From: Herbidospora galbida
GTDB taxonomy: Bacteria; Actinomycetota; Actinomycetes; Streptosporangiales; Streptosporangiaceae
Direction of reading: 5' to 3'
NCBI RefSeq assembly: GCF_005233835.1
Contig: NZ_SZQA01000026.1
Span: forward strand, 1-64,000
Length of the DNA: 64,000 nucleotides
The notes beneath the pieces were generated by a model that did no database searches, had not been told where the DNA came from, and saw only the letters and a program-made list of their open reading frames with translations. Numbering within the stretch: position 1 is the first letter of the stretch; the number at the start of each line of letters is the position of its first letter. The translations under genes were made by a program, and so were the position numbers. Shown piece after piece: positions 16,434 to 36,436 of the stretch.

Positions 16434-16465
16434 AAGGCGGACGAGTCGGCCTATAGGCCGGGTTC
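16434..16465. repeat. attL: 32-bp repeat, copy of rnpB 3' end
   Basis: Identical over all 32 bases to 36405-36436. The centre is a 14-bp palindrome CGGCCTATAGGCCG (16447-16460), a fitting crossover site for a tyrosine recombinase. Identity stops at both sides (preceding A versus C, following A versus T). This is the chromosomal-junction copy left downstream when the element entered rnpB. Confidence 0.88.
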
Positions 16466-16979
16466 ATATTCGGTATGGGCACTGCCTGCGACTACGCCGG
16501 CGGGACGGCTCGCTACCTGCGAGAACGATTCCACCTGTTCTCATCGCTTGCCAGCGCTTTCCGGCGCCATGTGCCCTAAAAGTGCCCGAGAGCCAGAGCA
16601 ACCACAAGCCCACCGCCGCCGACCACTTGGCCATGCGAGGGGCATTCGACCCTGTCAGACGACCCGGGCACGGATGCCTTCGACTACGAGAGCGCCCGAT
16701 AACGAACCAGATCCCGATCAAGCCAACAACCTCTGACAGGCCCAAATCCTGACCGCAGCAACCGTGTCGTCGCTGCGTCGGCTTTTGCAGCTCCATGTTT
16801 CCGCAGGTCATCCAGTGTGAGAGCAGCAAGAATGCTCTGAGTTAGATCAAGGGACGAGGGAAACCCCACCACTCGATCGGGCCCAGAACCTCATCGGCAG
16901 AGTAACCCCCGCCCAATCTCATGCGATACATCCTCGGTGCGCCGCTTCAGCCTGACGCGCACCTTTAGGTCAACGCGCC
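16466..16979. other. Left end of element: putative integrase arm sites, no gene
   Basis: No supportable gene in 514 bp. GTGCCC boxes in direct orientation lie at 16571-16576 and 16582-16587, 11 bp apart, with an inverted GGGCAC at 16477-16482. The right end has the same set (36334, 36345 and inverted 36376). The matched spacing suggests arm-type binding sites for the integrase or excisionase. Confidence 0.5.
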
Positions 16980-17312
16980 ATGTGGAGCATAGTGACGAAT
17001 AACATGAAGGACATCGCCCTCATCGGCACTATCATAATCGCCCTCTTGGGCGGGTACTACTTAAAATCGAATCACCGAGAGGAGATCGAATGCATGAAGG
17101 CCCGAATGGAATTCGAGAAAGCGGAGCTGGCCGCCTACTACAACAATGAGCTAGCCGGGCTTGGCCCAGCCTTACATCGCGACGCTTTGGAGCGGACCAA
17201 ATATGCCGCAGAAGCATCGATGAGATCGATGGCAAACGCAGTTCTTTTCCACGAGGACTGCTTCAGCACGACAGAGATAGGCAGGGCCCAAAAGCTTTCT
17301 GATAACCCATAG
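16980..17312 (+). CDS. Small membrane-anchored cargo protein
   Basis: A 110-residue protein not recognised. A hydrophobic helix at about residues 12-28 (IALIGTIIIALLGGYYL) is followed by a charged, helical and probably coiled-coil region (REEIECMKARMEFEKAELAAYYNNEL) and a soluble tail with two cysteines. Codon use is far more AT-tolerant than the host (many AAT, ATA, GAA), showing foreign origin. It is 87 bp ahead of another membrane gene, so the two may act together. A second Met at residue 9 is an alternative start. Confidence 0.5.
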   Translation: MWSIVTNNMKDIALIGTIIIALLGGYYLKSNHREEIECMKARMEFEKAELAAYYNNELAGLGPALHRDALERTKYAAEASMRSMANAVLFHEDCFSTTEIGRAQKLSDNP

Positions 17313-17399
17313 AAGTTCGATAGCTAGAAACTAGCAATGAAAGGCTAACAATTCAACATTGTAGATGATTTCGAAAGCTACTGACAGGGGCCCGCAGAA

Positions 17400-17912
17400 T
17401 TGGGAAATCAGGCTATCGGCTACTTTGAGGCGTGGGTCGCATGGGCTAGCGGCACCGACATCCGCCATCGATTACTCTGGGGATTAGCAATCTACTGGTG
17501 GGCTCGGGCTTCTAAGGTTGCCGCACTCATTGCAGGTCTCGTGATTGTTATGGACATCATTGGAGAACGAAGGCTCAAAAAATATCTCGAAAACAAGAAA
17601 GACAGAAGAGCCAATAGGACCGCCAGGGTGGCGACATATATTACGCTCGCAAGCTCGGGATATGTGGCGGCCGTACTAATCTCACCTCAAGAGGCCAGCA
17701 TATTTACGTTTACATGGCCAAGTTGGCAGATTCTTCTGGGTACAGCAATCGCCGAGCTAGCAGTCGGCATAGGACTATTCACGCTCGGCGCACATCGCAT
17801 AGTGTCCACCTTCCTTTGGCTCTATAATCACGAGAATATAAAACGCGCCGCACTCGCCCTCAGCGCACTACTTCTCCTTTTAGCATTTCATTTTGACTTT
17901 CTTGCCTCGTGA
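17400..17912 (+). CDS. Four-helix membrane cargo protein, unknown
   Basis: A 170-residue hydrophobic protein with helices at about 23-52, 73-96, 103-130 and 147-168, separated by a basic cytoplasmic loop (GERRLKKYLENKKDRRANRTARV). Start is a TTG placed about ten bases after an AGGGG site. No family recognised. Foreign codon use like its upstream neighbour. Small multi-helix proteins beside a second TM protein in element cargo are often membrane-acting effectors or immunity partners, but nothing here proves that. Confidence 0.5.
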   Translation: MGNQAIGYFEAWVAWASGTDIRHRLLWGLAIYWWARASKVAALIAGLVIVMDIIGERRLKKYLENKKDRRANRTARVATYITLASSGYVAAVLISPQEASIFTFTWPSWQILLGTAIAELAVGIGLFTLGAHRIVSTFLWLYNHENIKRAALALSALLLLLAFHFDFLAS

Positions 17913-17925
17913 ACCCGGGTTGCAG

Positions 17926-18588
17926 TCAAGAAGGCTCTTGGCGCTCAATTGTCTGAGCAAGTGGCAGTCCATCAGTTATCAAGAATTCAACACGGTATTT
18001 CGCTCCAAACGAGTCCTTGACAACAACATCCCAGCTCTCCGACGAAATATTATACGACTCCGAAACCAACTCAAGACTGTCGCTCTCATCTGGGAAGTCG
18101 ATGTTCGCCGATGCATATGTGTTTCGCAGCAATTTGCTATATCTACTCCAGATCATCCACCGAGCAAAACTAATAGCTTCATCTCGGTCCATTTCGCGGA
18201 AGTTACCGAAATCATCGGCAAAATTCCGAGCACTTTCCCCGGCTCGTTGAAATCTGGCTTGCAGGGAAGCAAACAATTTCAGCGTCGTTGCGGCAATGAG
18301 TCCATCAACAGTGGACTGAGCCAAGAATATCGAGATCTCATAGAACGGGCCCCCGTCAGCACCCCAAGAGTACCGCCCTTCATGTGCATCGATGAAATGA
18401 GCAGGCACCCGCTCGATGTCCTCTAAGAACAACCGCTCTAAGTCTTCTCGGATCGTCCGCGCTTCCGATCGCGGGAGTGCAATCGTGGTCAACCATATTT
18501 TTGTGCTCCCGAGAGAATCTCCTTTTCCTTCGGCCACCGTGACCGTGACCCGCGTCATTTCGTTTGCTCGATCGAAAAGCGAACTCAT
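17926..18588 (-). CDS. Hypothetical cargo protein, 220 residues
   Basis: A soluble, mostly helical protein that I cannot assign. The ATG at 18588 is preceded by GGAGG six bases upstream, a strong ribosome site, so this start is firm. Notable segments are 'RVTVTVAEGKGDSLGSTKIWLTTIALPRSEARTIREDLERLF' (beta-alpha start) and 'GGPFYEISIFLAQSTVDGLIAATTLKLFASLQARF'. It converges on the membrane gene with a 13-bp gap. Base composition is low-GC like the rest of the left cargo. Function unknown. Confidence 0.6.
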   Translation of the reverse strand: MSSLFDRANEMTRVTVTVAEGKGDSLGSTKIWLTTIALPRSEARTIREDLERLFLEDIERVPAHFIDAHEGRYSWGADGGPFYEISIFLAQSTVDGLIAATTLKLFASLQARFQRAGESARNFADDFGNFREMDRDEAISFARWMIWSRYSKLLRNTYASANIDFPDESDSLELVSESYNISSESWDVVVKDSFGAKYRVEFLITDGLPLAQTIERQEPS

Positions 18589-19173
18589 TTCGCACCTCCA
18601 TGTCATTGCAGCATACGGACTTGGACCCTACATCAGCGCGGACATTCGATCACCTCGTACGCCGTCGTCCCACCCCGGAGGGGCAGCGGGCCGGAGCCGG
18701 AGGGGCAAGCCCGGCTTTACGTGTACCTGTTCCCGGTGACATTCCTCATCCGCTGGTTGCCCTGCGTGCAGAGCCGGGCTTGAGCCGGAGTCTCCGGTCT
18801 GCTGGGCTTGCCTGGGACGACGGTGTGCGAGGTGATCCCCCGCCACCGCTTAAGAACCCGTCACGTCTTGCACCCACGATCACCTCGGGGCCGGAATCCC
18901 CGCCGGAGGCAAAACCCCTGATCTCCTGCGATCGGCAATGTCATTGCTCCGCCGAGGTCCGGTTCTCATCCGGCTACATGGTTGAACCGCTGTTCCGAGT
19001 CGGGCGCGGGGAGGTGGCGCGGCCGGGACCGGCCCGAAGAGGCCGCACGCCCGGCCGTGCCAGGCCGTACCGCGCCGCCGGCGCCCGCAGGGCGGCGGCT
19101 TGAACCCGTAAAGAAGGTTGTAACCGGCACTCGTACGTGAGGCTTCTTGCAGCGCACAGACAGCAATCCGTGC
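18589..19173. other. GC-rich island with nested inverted repeats, no gene
   Basis: A 585-bp gap whose composition jumps back to very GC-rich between AT-richer cargo genes. A 25-bp inverted repeat with two mismatches (18648-18672 and 18813-18837) encloses a second stem GGCAAGCCC/GGGCTTGCC (18704-18712 and 18804-18812), a CCCC-GGA-GGGG hairpin (18673-18683) and an alternative pairing AAGCCCGGCT/AGCCGGGCTT (18707-18716 and 18772-18781). It could be a structured RNA, a palindromic non-autonomous insertion, or a regulatory site. The part from 18880 to 19110 is also unusually GC-rich with smaller palindromes. ORFs across it look random. Confidence 0.5.
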
Positions 19174-22100
19174 CTACCGAGTCCTCTCAGCGATAAGGTC
19201 CCGAAGATCAATGCCGTAGTCCCTGACAAGCAGGCTGATCACTATTCGGGAGGTTGTCACCGCAGTGAGATCTCCTGCCAAGCCAACGCGCACGATTTGG
19301 CGAACGCTGTCGATATGTCGGACTATCCGCCACGGTTTTGGGCTTACACGGAGCCATCGGTCTAAGATTGCCAAACTAACTTGAGTGTGCTCAGAGGCTA
19401 TTTCTGCAAGCTTGGAAAATACGGAGCCGTCAACCTCAATACGACCAGCTAAAGTGAGTGTCACGAGGACTTGTTTTGATGACCATGATGCGTCAAAACA
19501 ACCACTGGCGAACCAGCGGCCAAATTCAGCCAATTCACCCGCGTCACTACCGTTTCGAGCGGCCTCTACCCGGAACTCCCACAATCTAGTGAGGCGCTCA
19601 ATTAGGGCAGGGTCAGAATAATCCAGTTCCTTTAACCCGAAGCCAACTGACCGGAGAAGATCCTTTGCGACTTCCTTCGATGCATGCAGATAAAATCGGC
19701 GCAAAAGCGAGTTGTGGCTCTCTAGGTCTATTTGACCATTCCACAGACGATTGATTAGATGACTTCCAAGTGCCTCAACACGGAATTCCGCCACCCTATC
19801 TTGATCTTCCGACTCCATCCGATCAACCATGGCGCTATAGACGTCAGTTAGCAGATCCCAGGTTTCGGAATTCAAATTCCCTCGAAGTAAATAGCCATCC
19901 CAAGCCGCCTCTAGTAAATGCGACTGATCTAAATCGAGCGGGAAGATTCTTGACGCATTCCGCCGCGTCCATTCACGGTCCATCAACACCAGGCGAGCAA
20001 ATTCTTCACCGTAAACAGAACGCACTGCTCGGGATGGCTCGTAGCTCGAATCGAGATGGCGGTCCAAGAGTATAAGCAAGTACTCGATCACCGAGTCAGG
20101 CGATCGTTGCCGAAGTCGCAGCCCGTAGGAAACAGCAGAACGCAACCCCTGAGGCCGTATTGTACTCTCGGCGAGCGCTAAGAATACACTTCTCTCTTCT
20201 AGCGCTTGGCCAGCTTCATCTTCGAGCGTAGGCGTGGGGTCCTGACAACAAGATTCGATGATTGACCAAATCTTAAGGTCGAGGTCAGAGGAATTTGAGC
20301 CGGACTGTCGAGTAAGTCCAACGGCCAGGAGTTGGATCATTTCAAGGCGAAGGCCGCGCCATTCTCCGCCGACGCTGGAATCCGCTTCACCAACCAGCGC
20401 GGATTCCGCTTCCCGATTAATCCACGCCAGGAGCTCCAGAATTCCGGCCCAGTCAAGGTGAACATTGGTTTGCGCGGCTTGCCATAGCCCATTCAACACA
20501 GCGCTGACATAGATAGCAGGAAGCCCAATGAATGCGCTGGCTTCATTCGACCATCGCGCAGGCTCACGCTGCACGACTGAACTAAGCGCTCCACGCAACG
20601 ATGCTGAACTCACGGCCGGCCAGCGATCATTTGATGGCTGCCAGGTCCGTAAAAGTTCAATCAGATCATCGGTAGGCATAGTCGCTAGCTCGCCCGGCCT
20701 GATTGCCTCCTCGATTTGCCCGGACCATACAGCAAAAGACTGAGGGGCGGGTAAGGTTGGATCAGGCGCTTCTCCATATTCAGCGACTAAAGCCTGATAA
20801 CGTGCGTCACGATCCGGCGGCAAAGCGCTTCGGATAGCACCGAGTCGATCCCGCTTCCACCGTGCCACACGTTCCGGCGCGAGCGGCTCAGCTATTCGCG
20901 AATTCGCGGTCGGCGAGAGCGCTCCGATTCGAGCGGCCTGAGGCTGAGGACCCTCATCAATAAGATTGATTAGTCGACGTAGACTGTACGGATTGAGACA
21001 AGAAGCTCCATGATGGGCAAGCAACAGGTACTCGTGGTCCAGATGCGAGTCCTGAATAATCTCCCTATTCACTAGATGAGAATTTACGAGATCGCATGCT
21101 TTATTCACATATTGTGAAAGCACATAGAGAGCTAGACGACGAAATATGGGCCACGAGTGCGACTCCAGCTCACCAACGACCTCGGAAATCTTATCTTGAT
21201 CCGAATCAATGATGGCCTGCGCACTATCGCGTACAACATCTACAAGCATATGCCTTAGGTCGGACTCGTGGGCCACTTGGCGACCTGCAATATTCGGCCG
21301 CCAAATCATTGACCCATCATAACTTTGTTCTTCACCGCGCTCCTCCATTTCACGGCTGATCACTTTGGCGAGTTGTACCGACAACTCTGCGAGCACATCC
21401 ACCCCTACTTTGTCTACAAGAAGAGGCACATATTGCTGCAATACTAACCCATATTCGTATGCGTCAACGCTACTTGTGGGACCATAACGGTTCGGTAATT
21501 GTGCTAGTAAAACTCTGGCCAGCGTCATAGCAGCATCGACCTCACCACCTTGACACAAGGCCGCCATCAGTGCGCCGACCTCATCGGGAAACCACATTCC
21601 GAATCTACTCTGGATTCCTTGAACGATGGTCGGCACGAGTCGAGCGCCTAGCTCTGGTGACACCGCACCACCAACCATGACAATGTCGCGATGCACTCGG
21701 CTATTGTCGGTAGCGGGCATCAATAGCACCGTCTCGACCGCTGCTTTCGGAGCCGCTGATGCGATTCTGGCCAGATATTCTGATTCCGCCCAGCTAGGCA
21801 TCTGTACCGTACCAGCGTTGTCATCCACTTCTGGAGAAGGTGGTGAACTGAAATAGCCGACTTGACGCAACGGCAGGAGCCAAGTTGCAGAAGCCCGCGA
21901 GAAGAAGTATCCAGAGACCACCTGTGTATGCGGGAAGCTCTGCTTCAAGGTATTGGCATCAGCTTTAGTCGGAGTAGATATTTTCAGGAGAAGATCGAGA
22001 CGCTCGAAGACCTGAAAGTATCTCGACTCAAACTGCTCCATGATCGCATCGAGCACTTGCTCAAATCGATCGATAAGCCCTAAGAAATCTTCATCTACGG

Positions 22101-22503
22101 GGCGAGGGGGATCTAATGCCAATCGATGAGCCCGGCCAGCCAAATTATCTGGACTATCCTGCCCCGCCATCCCCAGCCAAAAGACCGCTACTGCATCCTC
22201 ATGCGATATGCCTAGGTCGTCCAGAACCGCACGGATCTTTGCCCGGTGACGGTCTTCCTTGACTCCCTCCGCTGCATCTGCAGGCTCCAGTACCGACTGA
22301 ACGGCGCTAGCCAACTCACGGAACGCGTGCGCGACCAGATGTGTCACTGTACGCCGACGTGGATTTTCCGCCATCAACTCACAGGCATCACGGAAGAACG
22401 CAGCCGGGCCAGGACCTACCTGTGTCAGCAGCCAGCGAGCAATCCTCTCCTGACGAGGAGATAGGGGCAGATCTCTGCTAGAGGATGGCGATGAACTCAA
22501 CAA
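19174..22503 (-). CDS. Large helical-repeat protein, candidate defence cargo
   Basis: A 1,109-residue soluble protein, almost entirely alpha-helical in appearance, without signal peptide, membrane helix, P-loop or nuclease motif that I can see. The N-terminal part (1-230) begins 'LSPRQERIARWLLTQVGPGPAAFFRDACELM' and includes 'FFSRASATWLLPLRQVGYF', followed by HEAT-like solenoid segments to the end, e.g. 'VVRDSAQAIIDSDQDKISEVVGELESHSWPIFRRLALYVLSQYV'. The C-terminal half has 'RAVRSVYGEEFARLVLMDREW...RIFPLD' and 'AAWDGYLL', a pattern I associate with large proteins of phage-defence loci, but I cannot name the family. TTG start after GGAGAG. Foreign codon use. Sensor or scaffold role is inference. 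Confidence 0.7.
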   Translation of the reverse strand: MLSSSPSSSRDLPLSPRQERIARWLLTQVGPGPAAFFRDACELMAENPRRRTVTHLVAHAFRELASAVQSVLEPADAAEGVKEDRHRAKIRAVLDDLGISHEDAVAVFWLGMAGQDSPDNLAGRAHRLALDPPRPVDEDFLGLIDRFEQVLDAIMEQFESRYFQVFERLDLLLKISTPTKADANTLKQSFPHTQVVSGYFFSRASATWLLPLRQVGYFSSPPSPEVDDNAGTVQMPSWAESEYLARIASAAPKAAVETVLLMPATDNSRVHRDIVMVGGAVSPELGARLVPTIVQGIQSRFGMWFPDEVGALMAALCQGGEVDAAMTLARVLLAQLPNRYGPTSSVDAYEYGLVLQQYVPLLVDKVGVDVLAELSVQLAKVISREMEERGEEQSYDGSMIWRPNIAGRQVAHESDLRHMLVDVVRDSAQAIIDSDQDKISEVVGELESHSWPIFRRLALYVLSQYVNKACDLVNSHLVNREIIQDSHLDHEYLLLAHHGASCLNPYSLRRLINLIDEGPQPQAARIGALSPTANSRIAEPLAPERVARWKRDRLGAIRSALPPDRDARYQALVAEYGEAPDPTLPAPQSFAVWSGQIEEAIRPGELATMPTDDLIELLRTWQPSNDRWPAVSSASLRGALSSVVQREPARWSNEASAFIGLPAIYVSAVLNGLWQAAQTNVHLDWAGILELLAWINREAESALVGEADSSVGGEWRGLRLEMIQLLAVGLTRQSGSNSSDLDLKIWSIIESCCQDPTPTLEDEAGQALEERSVFLALAESTIRPQGLRSAVSYGLRLRQRSPDSVIEYLLILLDRHLDSSYEPSRAVRSVYGEEFARLVLMDREWTRRNASRIFPLDLDQSHLLEAAWDGYLLRGNLNSETWDLLTDVYSAMVDRMESEDQDRVAEFRVEALGSHLINRLWNGQIDLESHNSLLRRFYLHASKEVAKDLLRSVGFGLKELDYSDPALIERLTRLWEFRVEAARNGSDAGELAEFGRWFASGCFDASWSSKQVLVTLTLAGRIEVDGSVFSKLAEIASEHTQVSLAILDRWLRVSPKPWRIVRHIDSVRQIVRVGLAGDLTAVTTSRIVISLLVRDYGIDLRDLIAERTR

Positions 22504-22608
22504 CGTGATCAGCTCTCCGCTCGGCGACCAAGACTAGGCCGAGCCTGCCACATGCAAGTGCATCTTTACGGGTATAAGCGCTCTTTTCGCGTACCCGGTT
22601 CCCTCGTG

Positions 22609-22872
22609 CTAATACGCGAGGCCGGCAAGCAACGATACCCACAGCTCGTGCCCTGCGCCGGTCGACATCCGAGGCGTCTCGCACGTCACCCCACGGCGCC
22701 GACGACGGATGAACGTCTGCCCTCCGGCCGCGCACAGCTCATAGACAGTCGGCTGGCACTCACACGTCCAAGCAAGCGACCGAACCCGCCCCATAGTCTC
22801 CGTCCGCCACCACGTCAGTTTGACGTGCTTGTCCTGCGCCGGCGCAGGATGCGGACTCAGGCACGAGTTCAT
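22609..22872 (-). CDS. Small conserved AICE-associated protein
   Basis: An 87-residue protein starting at an ATG that overlaps the stop of the upstream ATPase (ATGA). The core 'VKLTWWRTETMGRVRSLAWTCECQPTVYELCAAGGQTFIRR' with three cysteines in a CxC...C pattern resembles short proteins often found next to anti-sigma-type ATPases in actinomycete integrative elements. Function unknown; coupling to the ATPase suggests a joint regulatory role. Base composition returns to host-like GC here, marking the left edge of the AICE core. Confidence 0.62.
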   Translation of the reverse strand: MNSCLSPHPAPAQDKHVKLTWWRTETMGRVRSLAWTCECQPTVYELCAAGGQTFIRRRRRGVTCETPRMSTGAGHELWVSLLAGLAY

Positions 22873-23279
22873 GCGCACGGAAGCGGCGAACCCATCGCCA
22901 CCGTCGCCCACACGGTCCGACTCCGCTCGTCTCCATGTACGCCCCACGCCTGCGCCAGGTGGTCGACGAGATCGAGGCCACGCCCGCACTCCTGGCGATC
23001 GTCAGGCTTGCGCACCTCGGGGCGCCCCGCTCCCCCTTCATCGAGCACGCCAAGCCACACCCGCGACGCCTCCACACGGACCGTGACCATGAACCGGCCC
23101 CCGGGCTCGCCGCTGCCCGTGTGCCGGATGGCGTTCGTCGCCAACTCCGAGACGATCAACTGGGCAGTCTCGACCTCGGCCCGTGGGGGTAGATGCTCCG
23201 CCACGAACCGGCGGGCTTCGCTGACCTGTCTGGTGATTCCGGGAAAGGTGCGGCGCCACTCAAAGGGGTGGGCGTTCAT
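22869..23279 (-). CDS. Anti-sigma-factor-type ATP-binding protein (HATPase_c_2)
   Basis: A 136-residue GHKL ATPase of the RsbW/SpoIIAB class. The N-box 'AQLIVSELATNAIRHTGSG', the D-box 'GVLDEGG' and the G-box 'ECGRGLDLVDHLAQAWGV' are in order. Such proteins bind sigma factors or phosphorylate anti-sigma antagonists; many stand-alone copies occur in actinomycetes and in AICE regulatory regions. Met at 23279 is preferred (GAGG nine bases upstream). Divergent from the monooxygenase/XRE operon across a 188-bp region full of AGTACT motifs, so probably controlled by that regulator. Confidence 0.88.
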   Translation of the reverse strand: MNAHPFEWRRTFPGITRQVSEARRFVAEHLPPRAEVETAQLIVSELATNAIRHTGSGEPGGRFMVTVRVEASRVWLGVLDEGGAGRPEVRKPDDRQECGRGLDLVDHLAQAWGVHGDERSRTVWATVAMGSPLPCA

Positions 23280-23329
23280 CTCGGCGCACCTCACGATCAT
23301 GCAGGTCACACACGGTCAGCTCGCGATCG

Positions 23330-23399
23330 GTACTTAAAGTACTGCTACAGTATTCCAAGTACAAGTCACTTCCAGTACTTGCCACGCACATTAAGTACT
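23330..23399. promoter_or_regulatory. AGTACT repeat array in divergent promoter region
   Basis: Perfect palindrome GTACTT-A-AAGTAC at 23330-23342, then AGTATT (23349), AAGTAC (23357-23362), AGTACTT (23374-23380) and AAGTACT (23393-23399). Copies of the same AGTACT word recur directly after the XRE gene (24980-25008). The array sits between the ATPase gene and the monooxygenase/XRE operon and is the likely binding region of the XRE regulator. Confidence 0.62.
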
Positions 23400-23467
23400 G
23401 ATCGCATGGGAAGCGGCGACTCCAACGGGCCACACGAACGGCCCCACACACGAAAGGAAGGGGTGTC

Positions 23468-23776
23468 ATGTTCGGCCTAGTAGTCCGGTTCACCTGCAAG
23501 GACGACACCACCGCAGAGGCGTTCGACCAGCTCATCGGCGAGACCATCGAGGGCATCAAGGCGCACGAGCCGGGCACGCTCGTCTACACCGTCCACAAGG
23601 TCGAGGGTGAGCCGCTGCTGCGGATCTTCTACGAGCTCTACCGCGACCGCGCCGCCTTCGACTTCCACGAGGAGCAGGAGCACACCAAGCGGTTCCTCGG
23701 CGCCCGGGACGACCTGCTCGCGGATGTCGAAGTCGACTGGCTCGACCTCCAGGTCGGCAAGGTCACGACCCCGTGA
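23468..23776 (+). CDS. Antibiotic biosynthesis monooxygenase-like protein
   Basis: A 102-residue ferredoxin-like alpha-beta protein of the ABM family: 'GLVVRFTCKDDTTAEAFDQLIGETIEGIKAHEPGTLVYTVHKV', then 'RIFYELYRDRAAFDFHEEQEHTKRFL'. Family members oxidise aromatic substrates or catabolise haem without cofactor, although many are of unknown use. The ATG has an AAGGAAGGGG ribosome site. Its TGA overlaps the GTG of the XRE regulator, so the two are coupled. Conserved beside such regulators in AICEs, which suggests a part in sensing rather than in metabolism; this is inference. Confidence 0.82.
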   Translation: MFGLVVRFTCKDDTTAEAFDQLIGETIEGIKAHEPGTLVYTVHKVEGEPLLRIFYELYRDRAAFDFHEEQEHTKRFLGARDDLLADVEVDWLDLQVGKVTTP

Positions 23777-24975: not shown

Positions 24976-24979
24976 GAAA

Positions 24980-25026
24980 AGTACTAGAACCAGTACTTAT
25001 AGTACTAGCTAATATTCGGAGTACCA
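24980..25026. promoter_or_regulatory. Second AGTACT array, before the transfer operon
   Basis: AGTACT occurs at 24980-24985, 24992-24997 and 25001-25006, two of them followed by AG, with a related GGAGTACC at 25018-25025. The spacing is 12 and 9 bp. It lies between the XRE gene and the SCO3933-like gene and would place the promoter of the conjugation/replication block under the same regulator. Confidence 0.6.
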
Positions 25027-25034: not shown

Positions 25035-25086
25035 CTGTGTTGGCGCTGAGGTCCCTGAAGCACCAGGGATCACGGCCCCAGCACAG
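25035..25086 (+). promoter_or_regulatory. Two-stem leader structure upstream of SCO3933-like gene
   Basis: Outer stem CTGTGTTGG (25035-25043) with CCAGCACAG (25078-25086), nine pairs including one G-U; inner hairpin TCCCTG (25052-25057) with CAGGGA (25064-25069), loop AAGCAC. It lies in the untranslated leader 68 bp before the ATG. Function not known; a leader regulator or protein-binding site is possible. Confidence 0.45.
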
Positions 25087-25153
25087 GCGCTTTCTGCGTT
25101 TCCAGGCCGCCACTCACGGCGGCGAACATCAACAGCCAAGAGATGAGTTCAGC

Positions 25154-25483
25154 ATGCGCAACATCCCCGTTGACCTGTCCGCCCTGTCCTTCATCGTGGC
25201 CGGCGAACCCGAACCCAAGCTCCTCGACCGCGCCACCGGTGAGGTCAAGAAGGACGCCGAGGGCCGCGAGCTCTACACCATCCCCCTGCTGCCCAAGCCC
25301 AACGACGACCGCCGCAACCCCGTGATCGTCGTGACGTTCCCGTCCGCCACGTTCCCGAGCATCCCCGAGGGTGTGCAGGTCCGGCCGGTCGGCCTGGCCG
25401 CCTTCTACTGGCAGATGGACGGCCGCTCCGGGCTCGGCTTTCGCGCCGAGGCCATCCTTCCGGCCAACGTCAAGGCCGCCTGA
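25154..25483 (+). CDS. SCO3933-like regulatory protein of AICE
   Basis: A 109-residue protein starting MRNIPVDLSALSFIVAGEPEPKLLDRATGEVKKDAEGRELYTIPLL and ending in 'GRSGLGFRAEAIL', the layout of the SCO3933 family found in almost all pSAM2-like elements before the FtsK-type gene. The family is described as regulatory, with unknown mechanism. An upstream in-frame extension covers the structured leader and is not used. It is the first gene of the plus-strand block that runs to the integrase. Confidence 0.8.
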   Translation: MRNIPVDLSALSFIVAGEPEPKLLDRATGEVKKDAEGRELYTIPLLPKPNDDRRNPVIVVTFPSATFPSIPEGVQVRPVGLAAFYWQMDGRSGLGFRAEAILPANVKAA

Positions 25484-25577: not shown

Positions 25578-26936
25578 ATGACCGACCTACTCGATTCACT
25601 CGCCCCGATCGGGGTCGTCCTGGCCTTCGTCGCCGCGCTCCTCGTGACCTGGCGATACCTTCACCCACCGTCGTTCTGGCTCGGCGTCGGCTACCCCTTA
25701 CGGGCCATGCGCGTCTACCTCACCTGGCCGAGCGTCGCCGCCGGCTGCGGGCTGACCACCAAACGGCGTCGTCTCCGGCGACGGCTCGACGGCGTCGAAG
25801 TCCTCAACCTCATCGCGACGGGCCGCGACCACAAGCGCCGAGTGCACCGCGTCGCCGTCGACAAGGCGCCCTGGCTCGGCCTGGTCCTGCCGCTGCGGCA
25901 CGGCTTCAAGCTGTGGGTACGTCTTCCGGACGGCCACACCCCCGACCACTACGCCGCCAAGCTCGACCATCTCGCCCACGCCTGGCGTGTGCACTCGGTC
26001 CGGGTACTGGGCTGGAAGCCCGGCAAGGTGCAGCTTCAGGCGACCGTGTACGACCCGCTCACCTCCGTCAGCGCGCCCATCGTCGACCGGTTCCTGAAGG
26101 TGTGCGTCGGGCGGCTGGAGACCAATGCGCCCTGGGTCATCGACTTCCTGACCGTCCCGCACTGGCTCATCACGGGCGCGACGCAGTCCGGCAAGTCGAC
26201 GCTCATCAACCGGCTCATCTGCGGCCTGGCGCCGCAACGACTCGCCCTCATCGGATGCGATCTCAAGGGCGGGGTCGAGCTCACCCCGTACGAAGACCGG
26301 TTGACGGCGCTCGCCACCGACCGCGCGCAGATGACGGCGGTGCTGAACCGGCTCGTCGACGAGATCCGGCGCCGCATGGCGATCTGCCGTGACTTTCGGG
26401 TGCGCAACATCTGGCAGCTCCCCGAGAGCGGTCAGCCCATCCCCATCGTCGTGTTCGTTGACGAGGTCGCCGAACTGTTCCTGATGGTCGACAAGTCGGA
26501 GAAGGACGAGATCGCCGCGACGGCGACCAACCTCATCCGCATCGCCCAGCTCGGCCGGGCGTTCGGGGTCTATCTCGTCATCTGCGGCCAACGAGTCGGC
26601 TCCGACCTCGGGCCTGGAGTCACCGCGCTCCGCGCCCAACTCTCCGGCCGCGTCTGCCATCGCGTCAACGACCCCGAGACGGCGAACATGACGCTCGGCG
26701 ACATGGACCCGGCCGCGCTCAACGCCGCGCGGCTCATCCCCGCCGAGACGCCCGGCCTGGCCGTCGTCACCGGTTCGGACGGCCGTTGGTACAAAGCCCG
26801 GTCCGAGTACGTCACCGAACAGCAGGCGGAGCAAGCCGCGGTGACCTACGCCCACATGACACCCACGTGGGCCGACATCACGACCGTGAACGTCGAACCC
26901 GTCAGCGACGACGAGTTCGACCAGTACGCGGCCTGA
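25578..26936 (+). CDS. FtsK/SpoIIIE-type DNA translocase (AICE transfer protein)
   Basis: A 452-residue transfer ATPase. A transmembrane helix at about 11-27 and a second short hydrophobic region anchor it. The FtsK motor domain (about 175-400) has Walker A GATQSGKST (K206) and Walker B VVFVDEVAEL (D295, E296), followed by 'LIRIAQLGRAFGVYLVICGQRVGSDL', which is the sensor-like region. TraSA/TraB-like proteins move double-stranded DNA between mycelia of actinomycetes without single-strand processing, so no relaxase is expected. ATG preceded by GAGAGG. Followed after two bases by the SpdB-like gene. Confidence 0.92.
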   Translation: MTDLLDSLAPIGVVLAFVAALLVTWRYLHPPSFWLGVGYPLRAMRVYLTWPSVAAGCGLTTKRRRLRRRLDGVEVLNLIATGRDHKRRVHRVAVDKAPWLGLVLPLRHGFKLWVRLPDGHTPDHYAAKLDHLAHAWRVHSVRVLGWKPGKVQLQATVYDPLTSVSAPIVDRFLKVCVGRLETNAPWVIDFLTVPHWLITGATQSGKSTLINRLICGLAPQRLALIGCDLKGGVELTPYEDRLTALATDRAQMTAVLNRLVDEIRRRMAICRDFRVRNIWQLPESGQPIPIVVFVDEVAELFLMVDKSEKDEIAATATNLIRIAQLGRAFGVYLVICGQRVGSDLGPGVTALRAQLSGRVCHRVNDPETANMTLGDMDPAALNAARLIPAETPGLAVVTGSDGRWYKARSEYVTEQQAEQAAVTYAHMTPTWADITTVNVEPVSDDEFDQYAA

Positions 26937-26938
26937 CC

Positions 26939-27460
26939 ATGCGCCGGCACCTCCTCGACTCCGGCCCGGTCGCCGTCCTGGCGGTCATCGCGGCGGTCGG
27001 CTCCTTCACCCACATCAGTTCGCTCGCCGCCAAGCACGGTCAGCCCGGCTGGCAGTCCTGGGCCGTGGCCGTCTGCATCGACCTCATGTGCGTCATGGCG
27101 ACCCGCGAACTCCAGCGCGACAAGCGCACCGGCCGCCCTCGACGTGGGCTCGTCTCGTGGCCCGGCCTGGTCCTGGCCGGCGGGATCGTGCTCACCCTGG
27201 CGGCCAACCTCGCCGAGGCCGAACCGACCGCCTGGGGCTGGATCACTTCGGCGACTCCGGCCGTCGCCTTCCTGGTAGCGGTGTCGATGCTCGAACGCCG
27301 CTCCTCACACCAGCCCGAAGAACCCGCACCCGAAGACGACCTGATCAGCAGAGCGCGGCATATCGCCGAGGAACACGGCGCCCCGCTCACCTGGGAAGTG
27401 CTCAGCGAGCGTCTCGACGTCGCCCCAGATGTCGCCTTCGACCTGCTGACCCGCATCTGA
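26939..27460 (+). CDS. SpdB-like membrane protein (DUF2637)
   Basis: A 173-residue protein with about four transmembrane helices in the first 115 residues: 'GPVAVLAVIAAVGSFTHISSLAAKHGQPGWQSWAVAVCIDLMCVMATRELQRDKRTGR' is the DUF2637 signature. A soluble C-terminal tail with a possible winged-helix segment (AEEHGAPLTWEVLSERLDVAPDVAFDLL) follows. SpdB-type proteins help spread plasmid DNA between hyphal compartments after conjugation. Gene order FtsK-type / DUF2637 / Rep is standard for this element class. ATG two bases after the FtsK-type stop. Confidence 0.88.
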   Translation: MRRHLLDSGPVAVLAVIAAVGSFTHISSLAAKHGQPGWQSWAVAVCIDLMCVMATRELQRDKRTGRPRRGLVSWPGLVLAGGIVLTLAANLAEAEPTAWGWITSATPAVAFLVAVSMLERRSSHQPEEPAPEDDLISRARHIAEEHGAPLTWEVLSERLDVAPDVAFDLLTRI

Positions 27461-29178: not shown

Positions 29179-29351
29179 GGAAGAACGACCGCCTGTGGTC
29201 CGTGGACGACCTCGCCGACTTCCTCGGCGTCCCGGCCGGGACCATCTACCAGTGGCGCACGCGCCGGACGGGACCTCCCGGCCGCAAGATCGGCCGTCAC
29301 CTGAAGTACCTCCCCGAAGACGTCTACGCCTGGGTGCGTGAGCAGTCATGA
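29175..29351 (+). CDS. xis: Excisionase (MerR-like helix-turn-helix)
   Basis: A 58-residue DNA-binding protein: 'LWSVDDLADFLGVPAGTIYQWRTRRTGPPGRKIGRHLKYLPEDVYAWVREQ' is the helix-turn-helix_17/excisionase motif. ATG overlaps the rep stop and its TGA overlaps the integrase ATG, so rep-xis-int are translationally linked. Xis bends attachment-site DNA and pushes the integrase towards excision. Confidence 0.9.
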   Translation: MRKNDRLWSVDDLADFLGVPAGTIYQWRTRRTGPPGRKIGRHLKYLPEDVYAWVREQS

Positions 29352-30502: not shown

Positions 30503-30834
30503 CGCTACGCGTTCATCGCATCCCAAGTCGAAAATTCCCGCTGTAATCTTGTGAGCAGTAGTCACAGCCCTAGCTTCATTTCCGCTCCGGCAACTGTCTC
30601 CAACCTCGCTTTTTCGCTTAGGACGGTCTGTGGTTAGCAGACCTTTGGGGTGCCAATCACGGACCGTTTACGTTTGTGTATATAGGTACACACCTCCAGT
30701 CCTCACACCAGAGTACTTTTAGCCCATTAAATTCACCGACTTTTATAGGCTAGAGATGACTCAATAATCCCCCCAGAAATCAGACTCAGAATCCAGGGAA
30801 AAATCTTCTTGGGACCCCGCGCCAGACATTCAGG
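30503..30834. other. AT-rich gap between integrase and caspase cargo
   Basis: No gene or att-like repeat in 332 bp. Composition drops sharply after the integrase stop, marking the border between AICE core and cargo. An inverted repeat GTGTA-N6-TACAC lies at 30676-30691. It may hold the transcription ends of both convergent genes. I found no second copy of the rnpB repeat here. Confidence 0.45.
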
Positions 30835-33800
30835 TCAGCAGGTATCCCGGAATGCGATAGTCGCCGGAATGTAATTCCGCCATTCTTGCTCAGTAAGGCC
30901 ACCATCGGCTCTGACGCAAACCATTGCAGGTGCATCTTCAATCGTGATATCGATCTCTTTGAGGTTACCAGCGGCCTCCAATGTATAGAGGGTACGGCCG
31001 TCAGAACTGAATGACACGGCTATAACGTCACTGCCATAACCGGTAATTGGTACACCTATGAGTGCGTGGGTCTTTACATCCCAGATTCGCACGCTTCGAT
31101 CCTTACTAGCTGTCGCAATCATGGTTCCATCTGCGGAAAATGCGGCAGCAACGGTCGGTCCAGTGTGGCCCGACAAAGGGGGATTGATCGGTTTCAGTGT
31201 TTCTGTATCCCAGAGCCAGACCCGAGCGTCAATAGTGGGACCGATCTGGCCTCCGCAGGAACAGTCGTTCTCACCACGCACTAAGAGGGTACGACCATTA
31301 GGACTCACAGCAAGAGCTTCACTGCTTGCCTCCATAGTGGAGCCCTCACCTAGTTCGCTACTTGCTGTGGACGGGTCCCAAATTGTCGTATGGGTCGTAT
31401 GACTGAGCGCAAGGCGTTTATCGGGAGTCCAAACAAGCGTGGAGACGACAAAAGGAGTGGTGACAATGGTTTGAGAGTTGCGGCGGATGTCCCAAAGTCG
31501 CAGATGGAAATCGCGGTCAGAAATTGCCAGAGTATGGCCATCCGGATGGAAGGCAATAGCCATGACTTCGTCCATGTCCTCGTCTCGCTCTGACACGGTG
31601 ATGCGAGACTTCTCCCGCATGCGGGACACATCAATAAGGGATATCACGTGGTTCGAGCGCACGATTGCCAAGGTCTGCCCGTCAGGTGAGTATGACATGG
31701 CCGGTACGCTAACAGCGGGGGGTTGGATCGTGTCCCAATTGACATCCCATGGCCCCTTTATGTCTGCGCCAATCTGTCGACCAGTACTTCGGTCCCATAG
31801 TCTGACAGCACTATCCGCCACTGTCGCAACGGTACGTCCATCTGGGCTGAACAGCGCTCCTCGAATGGGGCCACCCAAGGCGCCGGTATGGGCGAGCAGC
31901 GACTTGGGACGAGTAAAGGAGCTAACGTCTACGACACGAGAGGTAGCGTCATGACTTCCAATATGCAACGCCGCGTCGTCTCGCATGAGTGCCACAGTAT
32001 TGATAGAAAATCCGGGATAGGTAAGGCGATGCAATTCGGCCATAGTCTCCGTGTCCCACAATTGAACCGCCCAGCCGTTTGAAGTGACCAGTACGCGGCC
32101 GTCCTGGCTGAAGACTCCATCCACAACACCTGGTGAGTCCACTGCACCACTAGCCCAATTTAGCGACCTGGCTTTTACTTTGCCCGTGAGGTCCAGCAAC
32201 CGAGCGCCCTGGCCAGTCGTCATTACCCACCTCTTATTTGAGCTAATTCGTATGCCATATTCCGTCGGACCGCCATCGTCCCTTTTCATTCGCAGCCTGT
32301 ATATCCGGGTGGCGGTCGCTCCAATCTTGTACACATCAACATTCCTGCCGTTGACCAATGCCACTAGATCGCCTGCTGCATTTGTGTCAATACGCTGGAC
32401 TTGAGTGGGTAAACCAGGTACTGGCGTTACGTCAGGCAGTCGAATGAGAGTCTCCTCAGCCTGTTTACCTATAGAGGCACCGAATTTTTCTGATGCCACG
32501 AGACGAATGACACCTGATGGCTCGGCCATTATCTGGCCGCTTCTGGAGTTCCACACCATGCTGCGATTCGCACCACTATCATCACCAAAGGTTGCTCCCA
32601 CTAATTGTCCATCGTGGCTAAGAGTTGTCTCAGCCACATCCTGATTCACATGCAGCGTTCTTCTTAAGCGGCGAGCCCTTAGGTCCCAGATTTGTATGTT
32701 GTGGCCGACGACCACCGCCCCAGTGGATCCATCTCCGCTAAATTTTGCACGATTGGTGGTGGCGAGTGTAAATACCGACAGTTCTGGTTGCAGCAAAGAC
32801 CCGAGCAACGCTGATCGGGTCTCCGCTGTAGCACTGATGGCATAAGCGGCTAAGGTAAGCCGCATAGCCGTGAGGGGATCTGATTGGCGGAGTTGTGAAG
32901 CTGCAGCTGTTACGTTGCTGCTCTCAGCGACATCACGCTGAAGGTTGGCCTCGCGACGAAGATTATCGGCCAAAATGACTAGGCCGATGCTGATGATAAA
33001 CAAGAGCGTTAAGCCGATGATGGCTGCAGTACGCAAACGCCCTCTCGTGAGGGTCGCCGCATGCTCAATGGCCTCGAGGCTGACGCTGGCATCTAGGAAT
33101 TCCTGAGCTAAAGTTCCCAAAGCGTCGCGGCGTCCCGCGTGTCCAGCCCAGTCAACAATGAGGGCTAGGCGGCTGCCTCGGTAGAGGCTGCCAGAGTCGC
33201 GGCCGTCAGCGTTCCATATGCGGGCAGCCTCAATCAGCTCTTGCTGAACGAGTAGGCCAGCTCTATCTGCGTCGATCCAGGAACGGAGAGATGGCCAGGC
33301 GTAAATTAGCGCCTCATGGGTGATCTCGACGACTCCGTTGTCCACAGTGATGAGCCGAGCGTCGTCGGCAGCGAAGCAGTCGATCAACTTCACAACTTCG
33401 TCCTCGGCCTGCGGCAACTCCGCTAAAAGTTGTTCGCGACTAACCCGCCTGCGGGTATCTTCTGTTCCCTCACTGACGTGAACGAGACGCAAGAAAAACG
33501 GCCGGGCGAGTGCACGCGTAGGTTCGTCGAGCTGGCGCAGTACTCGATCTGCGGTGTGGGCGAGTGCACCCTGAATTCTGCCAGTCTCAATATAGGATGC
33601 AACGGTTAGCAACCGACTTTCACTCTGTCGCCAAGTCGCCCGAAGGGCGTGTGAGAGAAGTGGCAGCCGACCCGCTTCATATGACCCACCATCCTCACGA
33701 CTACCAAGGTCTCGAAGCAATAAATCGGTGAGTCCTGGCTCCATCTCTAGCTCGACAACGTTAGCCGGACGCTCGATCACCGCACGTACTTCCGTACTGG

Positions 33801-35241
33801 TCATCGGTCCGATGACAATGGGGTGCGCCAACGTGCGGGCAAGTTCAGGGTAGTCGGCGCAACGTCCGAGGAAGTCGGCACGCATCCCCAGCAGTACTGA
33901 CGCGGCCGACCCTGCAGCGTGTAACGCACGAATGAAGGCATGTCGGCGTGACTTATCCCCGCATTCGGTAAATATCTCTTCGAACTGATCGACCACAACA
34001 AGTAGGTGTCCAGGCACGGTCTTATGTGGATCAGCGGCGCCGGCCGCCTCCTGCCATACAGCCGCCGCCTCATCAGCGCTGAGCGCGAGCCGTGTAGCCA
34101 ACTCATGAGAGGAGCCAGCCGTCAGCGGAGCTAGGCGCGATGCTAAAACGGTCACCGGATCATTCGATGGCGTGAGTACGAGCCGTTGCCACCCGACTGC
34201 ACCTTGGATATTGAGCTCGCCACGCGCCACAGCAGGTAGAAGGCCGGCACGGAGGAGCGATGTCTTGCCCGATCCCGATGCTCCTATAACCAGGAGAGGG
34301 CCAGAGGCGTCGTCGTAACAGGCACTAACTCGTCTGCATAGCTCGGCCGTGAGCTTTTCTCGACCGAAGAACCAAGCGCTGTCCGCTTCGGTGAACGACG
34401 TCAATCCGGGATAGGGGCAAAGGCCATCCATCGAGGGCATTGCGTGGTCGGATGATTCAGCTCTGGTCTCGGCACTGAGCTGGCGAGCTGGATTCCTCAT
34501 GAGAATTAGGTCGCCAGCCATTCCGGTCGACTTCCGCCTCGGTCGAGGGCAGCCAGCTGCGGGCAGCACCCGGCTTAAGTACCGGAAGACGTGGTTCAGT
34601 GTCAAATTCTTAGGCCCAGCGGGGTCACCGTTGCTGAGCAAGCGGATCAGAGCGCCAAGGAAGGCAGTATTGGTGGCACCAACGGGCGCGAGTGCTAGTT
34701 CGTTGTGGCCCGCAGAGGTAAGTACGAAGGCGCCGGAGATTTCGGTCAGTTCAGCGATCTCTTCGGAGTCGCTCAATGACCCCACCGCCCGGCCGGAGAA
34801 GCAACAGTCCAGGATCACGATTTTCACACGCGCCGGACTGTCTAGCACGAACTGCCGAAGATAGTCGTAGGACCACGCGGTGTATTCATGTCTTTCGTCT
34901 CTACCACTTTCTCGGGTAGCTAGATGCAAGCCTCCCCGTTCAGTTAATAGGCCGTGTCCAACAAAGCTGACCATCAGCACGTCCGCTGCCCGCTCCGTGA
35001 CGGACTGCAGCGCGTTTCCGAACTCCCTATTGTCCGCAGGATTAAGGAGTGTTTGGATTCGATCTCGCGGTACGCGGCAATGCCGAACTAGTGCCTCAGT
35101 TAGATCAGAGAGTGTATGAGGTACCGCCAACACGTCTGGCAGTCGCGATCCGGGGAGATGCAGAGATGTGCCTACAAGCAAGATCTCAGCGTTCGCAAGA
35201 CCAAAGAATTTCTCTTTTTGATCATCAGCCAGTTGTGTCAT
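30835..35241 (-). CDS. Caspase-like protease fused to STAND NTPase and WD40 repeats
   Basis: A 1,468-residue modular protein. Residues 1-250 are a caspase-fold (C14) protease with catalytic H96 (SFVGHG) and C147 (ILDCCFSG). Residues about 275-700 are a STAND NTPase that begins 'CPYPGLTSFTEADSAWFFGRE' and has Walker A K326 (GASGSGKTS) and Walker B 'LLVVVDQFEEIF'. A transmembrane helix lies at about 736-757, then about 15 WD40-like repeats, e.g. 'ALFSPDGRTVATVADSAVRLWD' and 'AAFSADGTMIATASKDRSVRIWD'. This layout is known from bacterial conflict/programmed-death systems, where a WD40 sensor triggers NTPase oligomerisation and protease activation. Preceded by and overlapping the EACC1-like gene. 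GC lower than host. Confidence 0.88.
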   Translation of the reverse strand: MTQLADDQKEKFFGLANAEILLVGTSLHLPGSRLPDVLAVPHTLSDLTEALVRHCRVPRDRIQTLLNPADNREFGNALQSVTERAADVLMVSFVGHGLLTERGGLHLATRESGRDERHEYTAWSYDYLRQFVLDSPARVKIVILDCCFSGRAVGSLSDSEEIAELTEISGAFVLTSAGHNELALAPVGATNTAFLGALIRLLSNGDPAGPKNLTLNHVFRYLSRVLPAAGCPRPRRKSTGMAGDLILMRNPARQLSAETRAESSDHAMPSMDGLCPYPGLTSFTEADSAWFFGREKLTAELCRRVSACYDDASGPLLVIGASGSGKTSLLRAGLLPAVARGELNIQGAVGWQRLVLTPSNDPVTVLASRLAPLTAGSSHELATRLALSADEAAAVWQEAAGAADPHKTVPGHLLVVVDQFEEIFTECGDKSRRHAFIRALHAAGSAASVLLGMRADFLGRCADYPELARTLAHPIVIGPMTSTEVRAVIERPANVVELEMEPGLTDLLLRDLGSREDGGSYEAGRLPLLSHALRATWRQSESRLLTVASYIETGRIQGALAHTADRVLRQLDEPTRALARPFFLRLVHVSEGTEDTRRRVSREQLLAELPQAEDEVVKLIDCFAADDARLITVDNGVVEITHEALIYAWPSLRSWIDADRAGLLVQQELIEAARIWNADGRDSGSLYRGSRLALIVDWAGHAGRRDALGTLAQEFLDASVSLEAIEHAATLTRGRLRTAAIIGLTLLFIISIGLVILADNLRREANLQRDVAESSNVTAAASQLRQSDPLTAMRLTLAAYAISATAETRSALLGSLLQPELSVFTLATTNRAKFSGDGSTGAVVVGHNIQIWDLRARRLRRTLHVNQDVAETTLSHDGQLVGATFGDDSGANRSMVWNSRSGQIMAEPSGVIRLVASEKFGASIGKQAEETLIRLPDVTPVPGLPTQVQRIDTNAAGDLVALVNGRNVDVYKIGATATRIYRLRMKRDDGGPTEYGIRISSNKRWVMTTGQGARLLDLTGKVKARSLNWASGAVDSPGVVDGVFSQDGRVLVTSNGWAVQLWDTETMAELHRLTYPGFSINTVALMRDDAALHIGSHDATSRVVDVSSFTRPKSLLAHTGALGGPIRGALFSPDGRTVATVADSAVRLWDRSTGRQIGADIKGPWDVNWDTIQPPAVSVPAMSYSPDGQTLAIVRSNHVISLIDVSRMREKSRITVSERDEDMDEVMAIAFHPDGHTLAISDRDFHLRLWDIRRNSQTIVTTPFVVSTLVWTPDKRLALSHTTHTTIWDPSTASSELGEGSTMEASSEALAVSPNGRTLLVRGENDCSCGGQIGPTIDARVWLWDTETLKPINPPLSGHTGPTVAAAFSADGTMIATASKDRSVRIWDVKTHALIGVPITGYGSDVIAVSFSSDGRTLYTLEAAGNLKEIDITIEDAPAMVCVRADGGLTEQEWRNYIPATIAFRDTC

Positions 35242-35647
35242 CGCCCTGTTCCACTGCCGAGGGCCTTTCAGGGCTGCCAGCTAACCACTTATTCAGCTCC
35301 GAGGTGAGGCTACTAAGAACAGTTGCGTCTAACGAGCGGACCCGTTGTGCCGAGATATCAATTTTGGCGCCATCGTCGCGTTGAATGGTGATTCTCGTAT
35401 TACCAGTACGGTGGCGGATCCATGTGATGACGGTGGCAGATAGAATGGTCAAAGCCCCGCCAGGGGCAAGCACCAGCGTAAGCACTTCCACTAAACTGCC
35501 CAGATATCCCGACGACACAGCCGGCTCTTCTGTTCTGACGTGCCCACCCAACTCCTCCTCGGCAGCTAGCCACGCGCGCAGACTGTGAGCATCTCCTCCG
35601 GCGCCATCAACTGGCACTAGTACAGTGATAGTTGCCATACCGACCAT
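35225..35647 (-). CDS. EACC1-like effector-associated membrane protein
   Basis: A 140-residue protein with ATG seven bases after GGAGG. The N-terminal 'ATITVLVPVDGAGGDAHSLRAWLAAEEELGGHV' is followed by a membrane region at about 48-77 ('LVEVLTLVLAPGGALTILSATVITWI') and then by a beta segment 'RITIQRDDGAKIDISAQRV'. This is the pattern of the effector-associated constant component family (EACC1), found beside caspase, trypsin and other effector proteins of bacterial conflict systems. Its 3' end overlaps the caspase gene by 17 bases. Likely role: membrane-linked partner that conveys the signal to, or restrains, the protease. Role is inference. Confidence 0.78.
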   Translation of the reverse strand: MVGMATITVLVPVDGAGGDAHSLRAWLAAEEELGGHVRTEEPAVSSGYLGSLVEVLTLVLAPGGALTILSATVITWIRHRTGNTRITIQRDDGAKIDISAQRVRSLDATVLSSLTSELNKWLAGSPERPSAVEQGDDTTG

Positions 35648-36404
35648 CCTTCGTCCTCCATAGGCGTCCTGAGTCACCCCACACCCATCCCATCATCAGA
35701 AATCGTTCGAGTAAAGATAACGTTTGGCCCGAAGTTGGCACCAAAGAAGTTGGGATTCCAGATCACCTCTCCTTCAATTTCCATGTTTTGCTGCTAATCA
35801 CTGGAATTGCTTGTTACAGAAATGGTCTAGTGAGCCTTTTGAGGTCGCTTGTCCTAATGGAGTGCGGGGGACTGCAGCGACTCTGTAGATGTGATCGCTA
35901 GCCCCCCTCGGAACGGCTCGTGATTGACGCCTCTTCGAGGCGGTTGTGACGAGCCGTTCGTCGATTAGCCCGGGTGCTTCTGAGACATGCGTCGCTGAAT
36001 GCAGACGAACAGGTTGATTTCGGTCAATCCAGCGCACGGAATCGACTGGCGAGGCGACGCCTCGCCCTCGCTAGCAGTGACCCCACAGCTTAGGGTCTTC
36101 GCATACTGGCAAGACGCTGTTCCTGAGCCTCACTCGGACCCAGTAAATGCCCGCAAGTCATAGGTTGCGGCCCGGGACGGTAAGTTGGTCCGACATGGTC
36201 GGCGAGCCATGCGGTGGCTCCAGATCTGCTCCAGTCGGCCGCGAGTGTATGCAGTGACACTCGATCCGAGGCATCTTGGCAGCGACTCGCCGCACTCGAT
36301 TTCTTATTCTCTTGCCTCTAGATCACTGGCACTGTGCCCGAATTGTGCCCTCTAGGTTGTTGGATCATGCCCGGAGGGCACACCCATGCAGGTCAGAAGC
36401 CTGC
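35648..36404. other. Right end of element: palindromes and arm sites, no gene
   Basis: No supportable gene in 757 bp. A long hairpin has outer arms GAACGGCTCGT (35911-35921) and ACGAGCCGTTC (35949-35959) with an inner CGCCTC-TTC-GAGGCG (35928-35942). A 19-bp palindrome GGCGAGGCG-A-CGCCTCGCC is at 36048-36066. GTGCCC boxes 11 bp apart are at 36334-36339 and 36345-36350 with an inverted GGGCAC at 36376-36381, mirroring the left end. A promoter for the EACC1-caspase operon must lie just above 35647. Confidence 0.5.
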
Positions 36405-36436
36405 AAGGCGGACGAGTCGGCCTATAGGCCGGGTTC
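36405..36436. repeat. attR: 32-bp repeat at the rnpB 3' end
   Basis: Identical to 16434-16465. It covers the final 32 bases of rnpB, including the 3' strand of the P1 helix and the palindrome CGGCCTATAGGCCG. The host gene thus keeps a full 3' end after insertion, the usual strategy of elements that enter stable-RNA genes. Confidence 0.88.

Follow-up and report, generated by a model that had tools for sequence, protein, structure and literature searches.

The window, that is, the whole 64-kb stretch of Herbidospora galbida DNA analysed here, holds the gene for the RNase P RNA (rnpB) and, across 20 kb of other genes, a second copy of the end of that gene. The locus raises the question of how the second copy arose, and of whether the DNA in between is a mobile element that attaches itself at rnpB. 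We give a probability of about 0.92 to the reading that this DNA is an actinomycete integrative and conjugative element (AICE) and that the chromosomal attachment site of its tyrosine integrase is the 3′-end of rnpB. The features on which the following sections draw are collected in Table 1.

Table 1. Features of the element and of the adjoining rnpB gene (positions in the 64-kb window)
Feature	Position	Strand	Evidence or remark
Distal att core, displaced rnpB 3′-end, 32 bp	16434..16465	+	Repeat search, window and genome
Left arm pair GTGCCC-N5-GTGCCC, proposed integrase arm site	16571..16587	+	105 bp from core
Left cargo, Dsr1-like protein, 1109 aa	19174..22503	-	PADLOC Dsr1 4.8e-28, residues 345-940
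HATPase_c_2 protein	22869..23309	-	Domain match
ABM-domain protein	23468..23776	+	PF03992
XRE-type regulator, 400 aa	23773..24975	+	HTH_31
SCO3933-family regulatory protein	25037..25483	+	NF051478
FtsK/SpoIIIE-type Tra, 452 aa	25578..26936	+	PF01580, 100 bits
DUF2637 protein	26936..27460	+	Domain match
RepSA replication initiator, 448 aa	27832..29178	+	PF20199, 517 bits
Xis-like protein, 58 aa	29175..29351	+	HTH_17; function inferred from HTH_17 and position
Tyrosine integrase, 384 aa	29348..30502	+	PF00589, alignment
Right cargo, caspase (EACC1-associated)-nSTAND1-WD40 protein, 1468 aa	30835..35241	-	Pfam, NCBIfam
Right cargo, EACC1 protein	35225..35677	-	PF19953
Right arm pair GTGCCC-N5-GTGCCC, proposed integrase arm site	36334..36350	+	54 bp from core
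rnpB-side att core, 3′-end of rebuilt gene	36405..36436	+	RF00010 match and repeat search
rnpB, RNase P RNA class A, complete	36409..36803	-	RF00010, 304.4 bits

Two copies of the 3′-end of rnpB bound the element

The two core copies are identical over 32 bp, and when up to three mismatches were allowed the window contained these two matches and no others, and 100 shuffles contained none. A search of the 8.3-Mb genome with 30 of the 32 core bases, again with up to three mismatches, led to the same two places only. The right copy belongs to a complete rnpB, which matches RF00010 over model positions 1–367 (gathering score 100), and the core takes up the last 28 nt of the gene (model positions 340–367) together with 4 bases beyond it. 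RF00010 occurs only once in the window, which makes the left copy a displaced end of the gene rather than another RNA gene; no tRNA genes were found when they were sought in the 64 kb. The initial annotation had equated the repeat with the 3′-end of rnpB, and the exact repeat and the full-length RF00010 match bear this out, the single match also speaking against the repeat being part of an unrelated duplicated RNA gene, which that annotation had named as one of two cases that would overturn it. Its bounds of 16434 and 36436 are the outer edges of the two copies, but rnpB itself reaches 36803, and the inserted DNA proper spans approximately 16466–36404. Moreover, the 14-bp palindrome CGGCCTATAGGCCG that it had placed at the middle of the core is present in both copies (16447–16460 and 36418–36431), but is offset by ∼4 bp from the centre of the 32-mer. 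The centre of the core is CTGTAG in most listed relatives, and the palindrome is thus imperfect there.

The gene content is that of an AICE

In plus-strand order, the 20 kb between the cores encode an XRE regulator, an SCO3933-family regulator, an FtsK/SpoIIIE-type Tra, a DUF2637 protein, RepSA, an HTH_17 protein and the tyrosine integrase. GC content is 65–70% in this backbone (23–30 kb) and 50–60% in the cargo on either side of it, compared with ∼70% or above in most of the chromosome, so that the profile matches and the GC values agree with the earlier description of AICE genes accompanied by low-GC cargo. The traits that define an AICE are found here as an integrase with flanking att repeats, a plasmid-type replication initiator, a single FtsK/SpoIIIE-type transfer protein and an Xis-type gene between rep and int (the HTH_17 protein, 29175–29351). 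The initiator scores 506 bits with the NCBIfam RepSA equivalog, below its cut-off of 700, and the Tra protein scores 37.6 with the NCBIfam TraB model (cut-off 800). A 3′-end of a tRNA gene, the usual but non-defining target of AICEs, is replaced by rnpB. Genes of PICI satellites (small terminase, packaging interference) were not seen among the element proteins scanned with Pfam and NCBIfam.

Putative arm sites and a proposed mechanism

The motif GTGCCC-N5-GTGCCC occurs exactly twice in the window, once just inside each end of the element, against an expectation of 0.02, and no shuffle out of 100 reached two. We read these pairs as putative arm-type integrase sites. A similar spacing recurs in the collected loci, which gave 105 distinct core sites: 7-mers that recur unchanged 11 bp further on were found in 39 of 105 left flanks and in 28 of 50 right flanks without rnpB, compared with 0–8 left and 0–5 right flanks for every other shift from 7 to 30, although the core sites are related to each other and these counts are thus not independent. 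Among the listed loci, other arm motifs surround the same core: G642, G649 and G425 have paired copies of CTGCGGAC, and GGAACAG is the paired motif next to the second integrase of G021 and at other places.

Under the proposed mechanism, attP of the excised circle would consist of the right GTGCCC pair, the 32-bp rnpB core and the left GTGCCC pair. Bound to both arms and core, the integrase would catalyse recombination between attP and the 3′-end of the host's rnpB. The last 28 nt of rnpB are contained in the core, so that integration would keep the RNA gene whole: its 5′ part would continue into a complete 3′-end supplied by the element, and the displaced end would remain at the other border. 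The Xis-like protein would drive excision, and the circle would be replicated by RepSA and transferred by the FtsK-type Tra. That the insertion rebuilds the end of rnpB, as had been suggested at first, is supported by the repeat, the gene set, the arm-like pairs, the sister element of Herbidospora solisilvae and the clade of integrases found beside rnpB (see below). An essential gene whose end is fixed by the function of its RNA is a dependable target, and imprecise loss of the element would presumably be harmful to the host.

Cargo genes occupy two slots

Cargo lies in two slots, at the left end and between int and the right arm. The 1109-aa protein of the left slot matches part of Dsr1 only, and its score with the NCBIfam Dsr1 model is 35.6 bits, far below the cut-off of 1400; Pfam gave no hit to the protein, and thus no sirtuin domain, so that it does not qualify as a Dsr1 defence protein, and it could be the sensor part of Dsr1 with a different N terminus. 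The 1468-aa protein of the right slot scores 191.8 bits with the NCBIfam model caspase_w_EACC1, above the cut-off of 140. Both cargo sets resemble anti-phage or conflict genes, the names of their families being what suggests a role in defence.

The distance between integrase and core is 66–96 bp in G021, G234, G181 and G073, and is 5.9 kb in the window, 1.3 kb in G005 and 1.0 kb in G100. Judged by these distances, the slot between int and core would have been filled either by insertion of cargo or by absorption of a second element. In the latter case the right cargo (30503–36317) would be a second element beside rnpB, with the intervening core lost and the two elements fused. Tandem elements at rnpB are known in G021, G011 and G338, the cargo sits exactly between the end of int and the right arm, and in G005 and G100 the slot is taken by different DNA. 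However, there is neither a core nor an arm pair at the junction of int and cargo, and a simple insertion of cargo accounts for the slot equally well, so that a composite origin is possible but in our view doubtful.

The same distance could also mean that the element is an old integration at rnpB that is now immobile, its integrase parted from the right arm by 5.8 kb of cargo and the cargo domesticated, and worn copies and integrase remnants are indeed common at the rnpB site. The Int, Rep, Tra and Xis-like frames are nevertheless open and full length, both arm pairs and a perfect core are kept, the backbone is close to that of H. solisilvae, and a long distance between int and attP need not block action in trans. 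We regard such a stranded remnant as unlikely, and keep to an AICE with its own integrase and attachment site.

Herbidospora relatives and the search for an empty site

Six genomes of the genus (G001–G006) were compared. H. solisilvae NEAU-GS84 (G005) has two cores 12 kb apart that bound a sister element at the same place, with integrase, Tra and RepSA proteins 96, 99 and 92% identical to those of the window. At the DNA level, identity is 93.9% across 7.9 kb of shared backbone, 87.7% across 2.3 kb of the left flank and 90.2% on the rnpB side; since species of the genus can be up to 94.5% identical in other chromosomal stretches, the value for the backbone is weak evidence of recent exchange. 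The sister element lacks the caspase cargo and carries instead a Septu-like pair (L037 10984–13040), which matches the PtuA (1.2e-139) and PtuB (6.3e-92) models best and type IV restriction models second best (3e-100 and 2.3e-70).

The remaining genomes differ at this place. The three cores of G001 enclose stretches of 1.6 and 0.8 kb and the two of G003 a stretch of 1.6 kb; no match to the window integrase was found in either locus. Between the end of the conserved left flank and the distal core there are 213 bp in G001, 226 bp in G005 and ∼420–470 bp in the window, and the inserts of G001 and G005 differ from that of the window. A single core is present in G002, G004 and G006. The initial annotation had predicted that in a relative without the element the sequence up to 16433 would be joined directly to rnpB, and this join was not recovered cleanly: the gap between left flank and rnpB is filled with other genes in G002 (2.9 kb) and G004 (2.0 kb), in G006 the left flank is matched at length only as far as window position 13625, and window positions 16019–16433 have no clear match in the relatives. 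Hence none of the six Herbidospora genomes offers a clean empty site, nor did the flanks of distal cores show a clean join in genus g80 (11 genomes) or genus g6 (16 genomes), the query's own genome being included in each. The left flank of the distal core of G339 matches G331 at 89% over ∼720 bp (L205, C2:1102571-1103290), but this place is 3.3 Mb from rnpB, so that the flank of G339 may itself be mobile or rearranged; the position of the flank in G331 is covered by none of the explanations proposed here. Between flank and rnpB, G002 carries a protein that by eye appears radical-SAM-like (L034 12202–13323), with a small repeat-rich frame upstream.

The missing empty site is what could be said for a left copy that is a stray fragment of rnpB, arisen by chance or by an unrelated duplication, with the AICE inserted elsewhere, for example in a tRNA gene. 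Such an origin is highly improbable given that the repeat was absent from all shuffles, that the window has no tRNA gene, that arm pairs lie at both borders, that all 22 listed close homologues of the integrase are found by rnpB, and that no att core was seen elsewhere at the borders of the AICE.

Integrases beside rnpB within the family

At a threshold of 1e-40, the window integrase had a match in 134 of 338 genomes of the family. Among the matches listed, all 22 with at least 51% identity adjoin a copy of the rnpB end, 21 of them within 1.3 kb and the window itself at 5.9 kb, and several of the 22 are integrase remnants. The 13 loci examined from the 36–41% identity class (L087–L089 and L091–L100) gave a different picture, with a core in one (L097) and a tRNA near another (L087). 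Outside those 13 loci, weaker matches in G021 (its second integrase), G179, G176 and G283 also abut cores.

A tree was built from 46 integrases, of which 21 were linked to rnpB, 21 were not and 4 were ambiguous (3–4 core mismatches, label not counted); partial integrases (L080, L081, L084, L085, L086, L090, L112 and L121) and those with an internal stop (L077, L106 and L113) were left out. The window integrase falls in a clade of 10 members with an SH-aLRT support of 100, and all 10 are linked to rnpB. Over the whole tree the rnpB label requires 7 changes (gains and losses undivided), at least 4 of them forced by starred branches, compared with a mean of 15.5 for shuffled labels. Since the clade is linked to rnpB throughout and the label is also found elsewhere on the tree, the target is stable within the clade and is used by other lineages as well.

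Core copies, arrays and mini-elements

A 31-base core pattern with up to three mismatches was found in 239 of 341 genomes of the family, and the same pattern read backwards had no match among the genomes listed in the pattern table. By hand count, 44 of these 239 genomes have at least two copies, and in 34 of the 44 the copies lie on one contig and strand within ∼22 kb. The pattern is blind to worn copies and to rnpB ends that have diverged, it also picks up some copies away from rnpB on other contigs, and the second copy of G060 is a longer piece of rnpB; the pattern count is thus not a count of elements.

Arrays and fragments take several forms. In G021, a Planomonospora sp., a tandem pair extends from L039 4031 to L040 19580, with integrases 82% and ∼35% identical to that of the window. 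Mini-elements with ∼0.8–1.9 kb between cores are seen at L033 9601–11955, L035 1589–3156, L126 1689–2463, L146 1553–3481 and L156 1605–3033, of which some keep no more than the final portion of an integrase and others have no match to the window integrase; by their structure, they may be moved by integrases made elsewhere. Core copies are also seen on contig stretches without rnpB (L141–L145, L147–L150 and L152–L155, in G123, G100, G105, G108, G235, G236 and G237), most of which then run into sequence like the left arm of the element, and these are secondary sites, rearrangements or contig breaks.

The rnpB site in other families, phages and plasmids

In a search at the level of the class, the integrase had a match at 1e-55 in 34 of 394 genomes. 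When 20 of the class loci were scanned with Rfam, five from other families (G642, G649, G580, G425 and G426) had a complete rnpB beside the integrase end, and the integrases of these five are 38–41% identical to that of the window; a tRNA was present in 2 of the 20. Core copies without rnpB (up to two mismatches) were found in G052, G496 and G502. The 22 of 22 listed close homologues beside rnpB, together with distant integrases on the same core, show that attachment to the 3′-end of rnpB recurs in the class.

A phage appears to use the same core. The integrase of a 35-kb IMG/VR contig shares 73% identity with the second one of G021, and the contig encodes large terminase, portal, head protease, major head and tape-measure proteins, which identify a tailed phage. 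The whole record has one core (up to three mismatches) with GGAACAG pairs on both sides, and RF00010 had no match in the 6 kb scanned. This is how the attP of a free phage should look, although a junction between tandem elements would look alike locally. A search of this record for RepSA gave no match, and control genomes likewise gave none. More distant matches were found in a plasmid collection (8 records at 1e-20, 27–33% identical) and in a phage collection (543 records, all below 60%, the 20 listed being 28–32% identical).

We consider it likely that the 3′-end of rnpB is a class-wide, uncatalogued hotspot of actinomycetes, at which several integrase lineages with their own 11-bp tandem arm motifs would bring in AICEs, at least one tailed phage, tandem arrays, mini-elements without integrase and swapped anti-phage systems.

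Relation to known elements

In the parts of the AICE survey available to us (PMC3218068), the 3′-ends of tRNA genes are the targets of the vast majority of AICEs with tyrosine integrases, the pSLS subfamily excepted, and rnpB is not named as a target. The window element agrees with AICEs of the pSAM2 kind described there in gene set and gene order, but differs from them in its target and in the cargo between int and core. A putative PICI that splits rnpB is described for Clostridium novyi sensu lato in the accessible passages of PMC8473940; like the window element it is integrated in rnpB, but it is described as a phage satellite and comes from another phylum, the comparison with the window element being one of descriptions. 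The islands collected by Islander resemble the window element in that a piece of the target gene restores the gene and a displaced fragment is left behind, as far as the main text of PMC4383910 describes them; its targets are tRNA and tmRNA genes, so that islands at rnpB fall outside its scope, and the term ‘rnpB’ is absent from that main text.

In the open-licence literature, to which the survey mostly kept, subscription papers lying largely outside it, an element in rnpB was reported once, in the clostridial case above, and the passages retrieved from other papers bring up rnpB only in connection with promoters, annotation, phylogeny or references. The remark in the initial annotation that rnpB is rarely noted as an attachment gene fits with this single report and with the tRNA-centred survey of AICEs, within the portions of these sources that were available. 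The element itself is an AICE with an unusual target, and the wider pattern of several integrase lineages at rnpB is the interesting part. Island finders limited to tRNA and tmRNA genes miss the rnpB site. Should rnpB prove to be used repeatedly as an attachment gene, a single fixed position could be inspected across actinomycete genomes for mobile and defence cargo, and a pair of integrase and att site that reaches a single-copy essential RNA gene could serve the genetics of genera with few tools. It would then also become testable why integrases favour the ends of functionally fixed RNA genes, and whether imprecise loss that harms rnpB helps to keep such elements in place.

Other records with core-like sequence

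Two unannotated gut records labelled as phage, which contain the rnpB core, were rejected as attP candidates; they have a complete rnpB and no integrase match in the stretches examined, and were thus taken as bacterial DNA. With a 60-base attP query, one Streptomyces plasmid record matched over 27 bases. In G123, a group II intron match (RF00029; L125 11670–11746) lies just past the most distal core of the array at rnpB.
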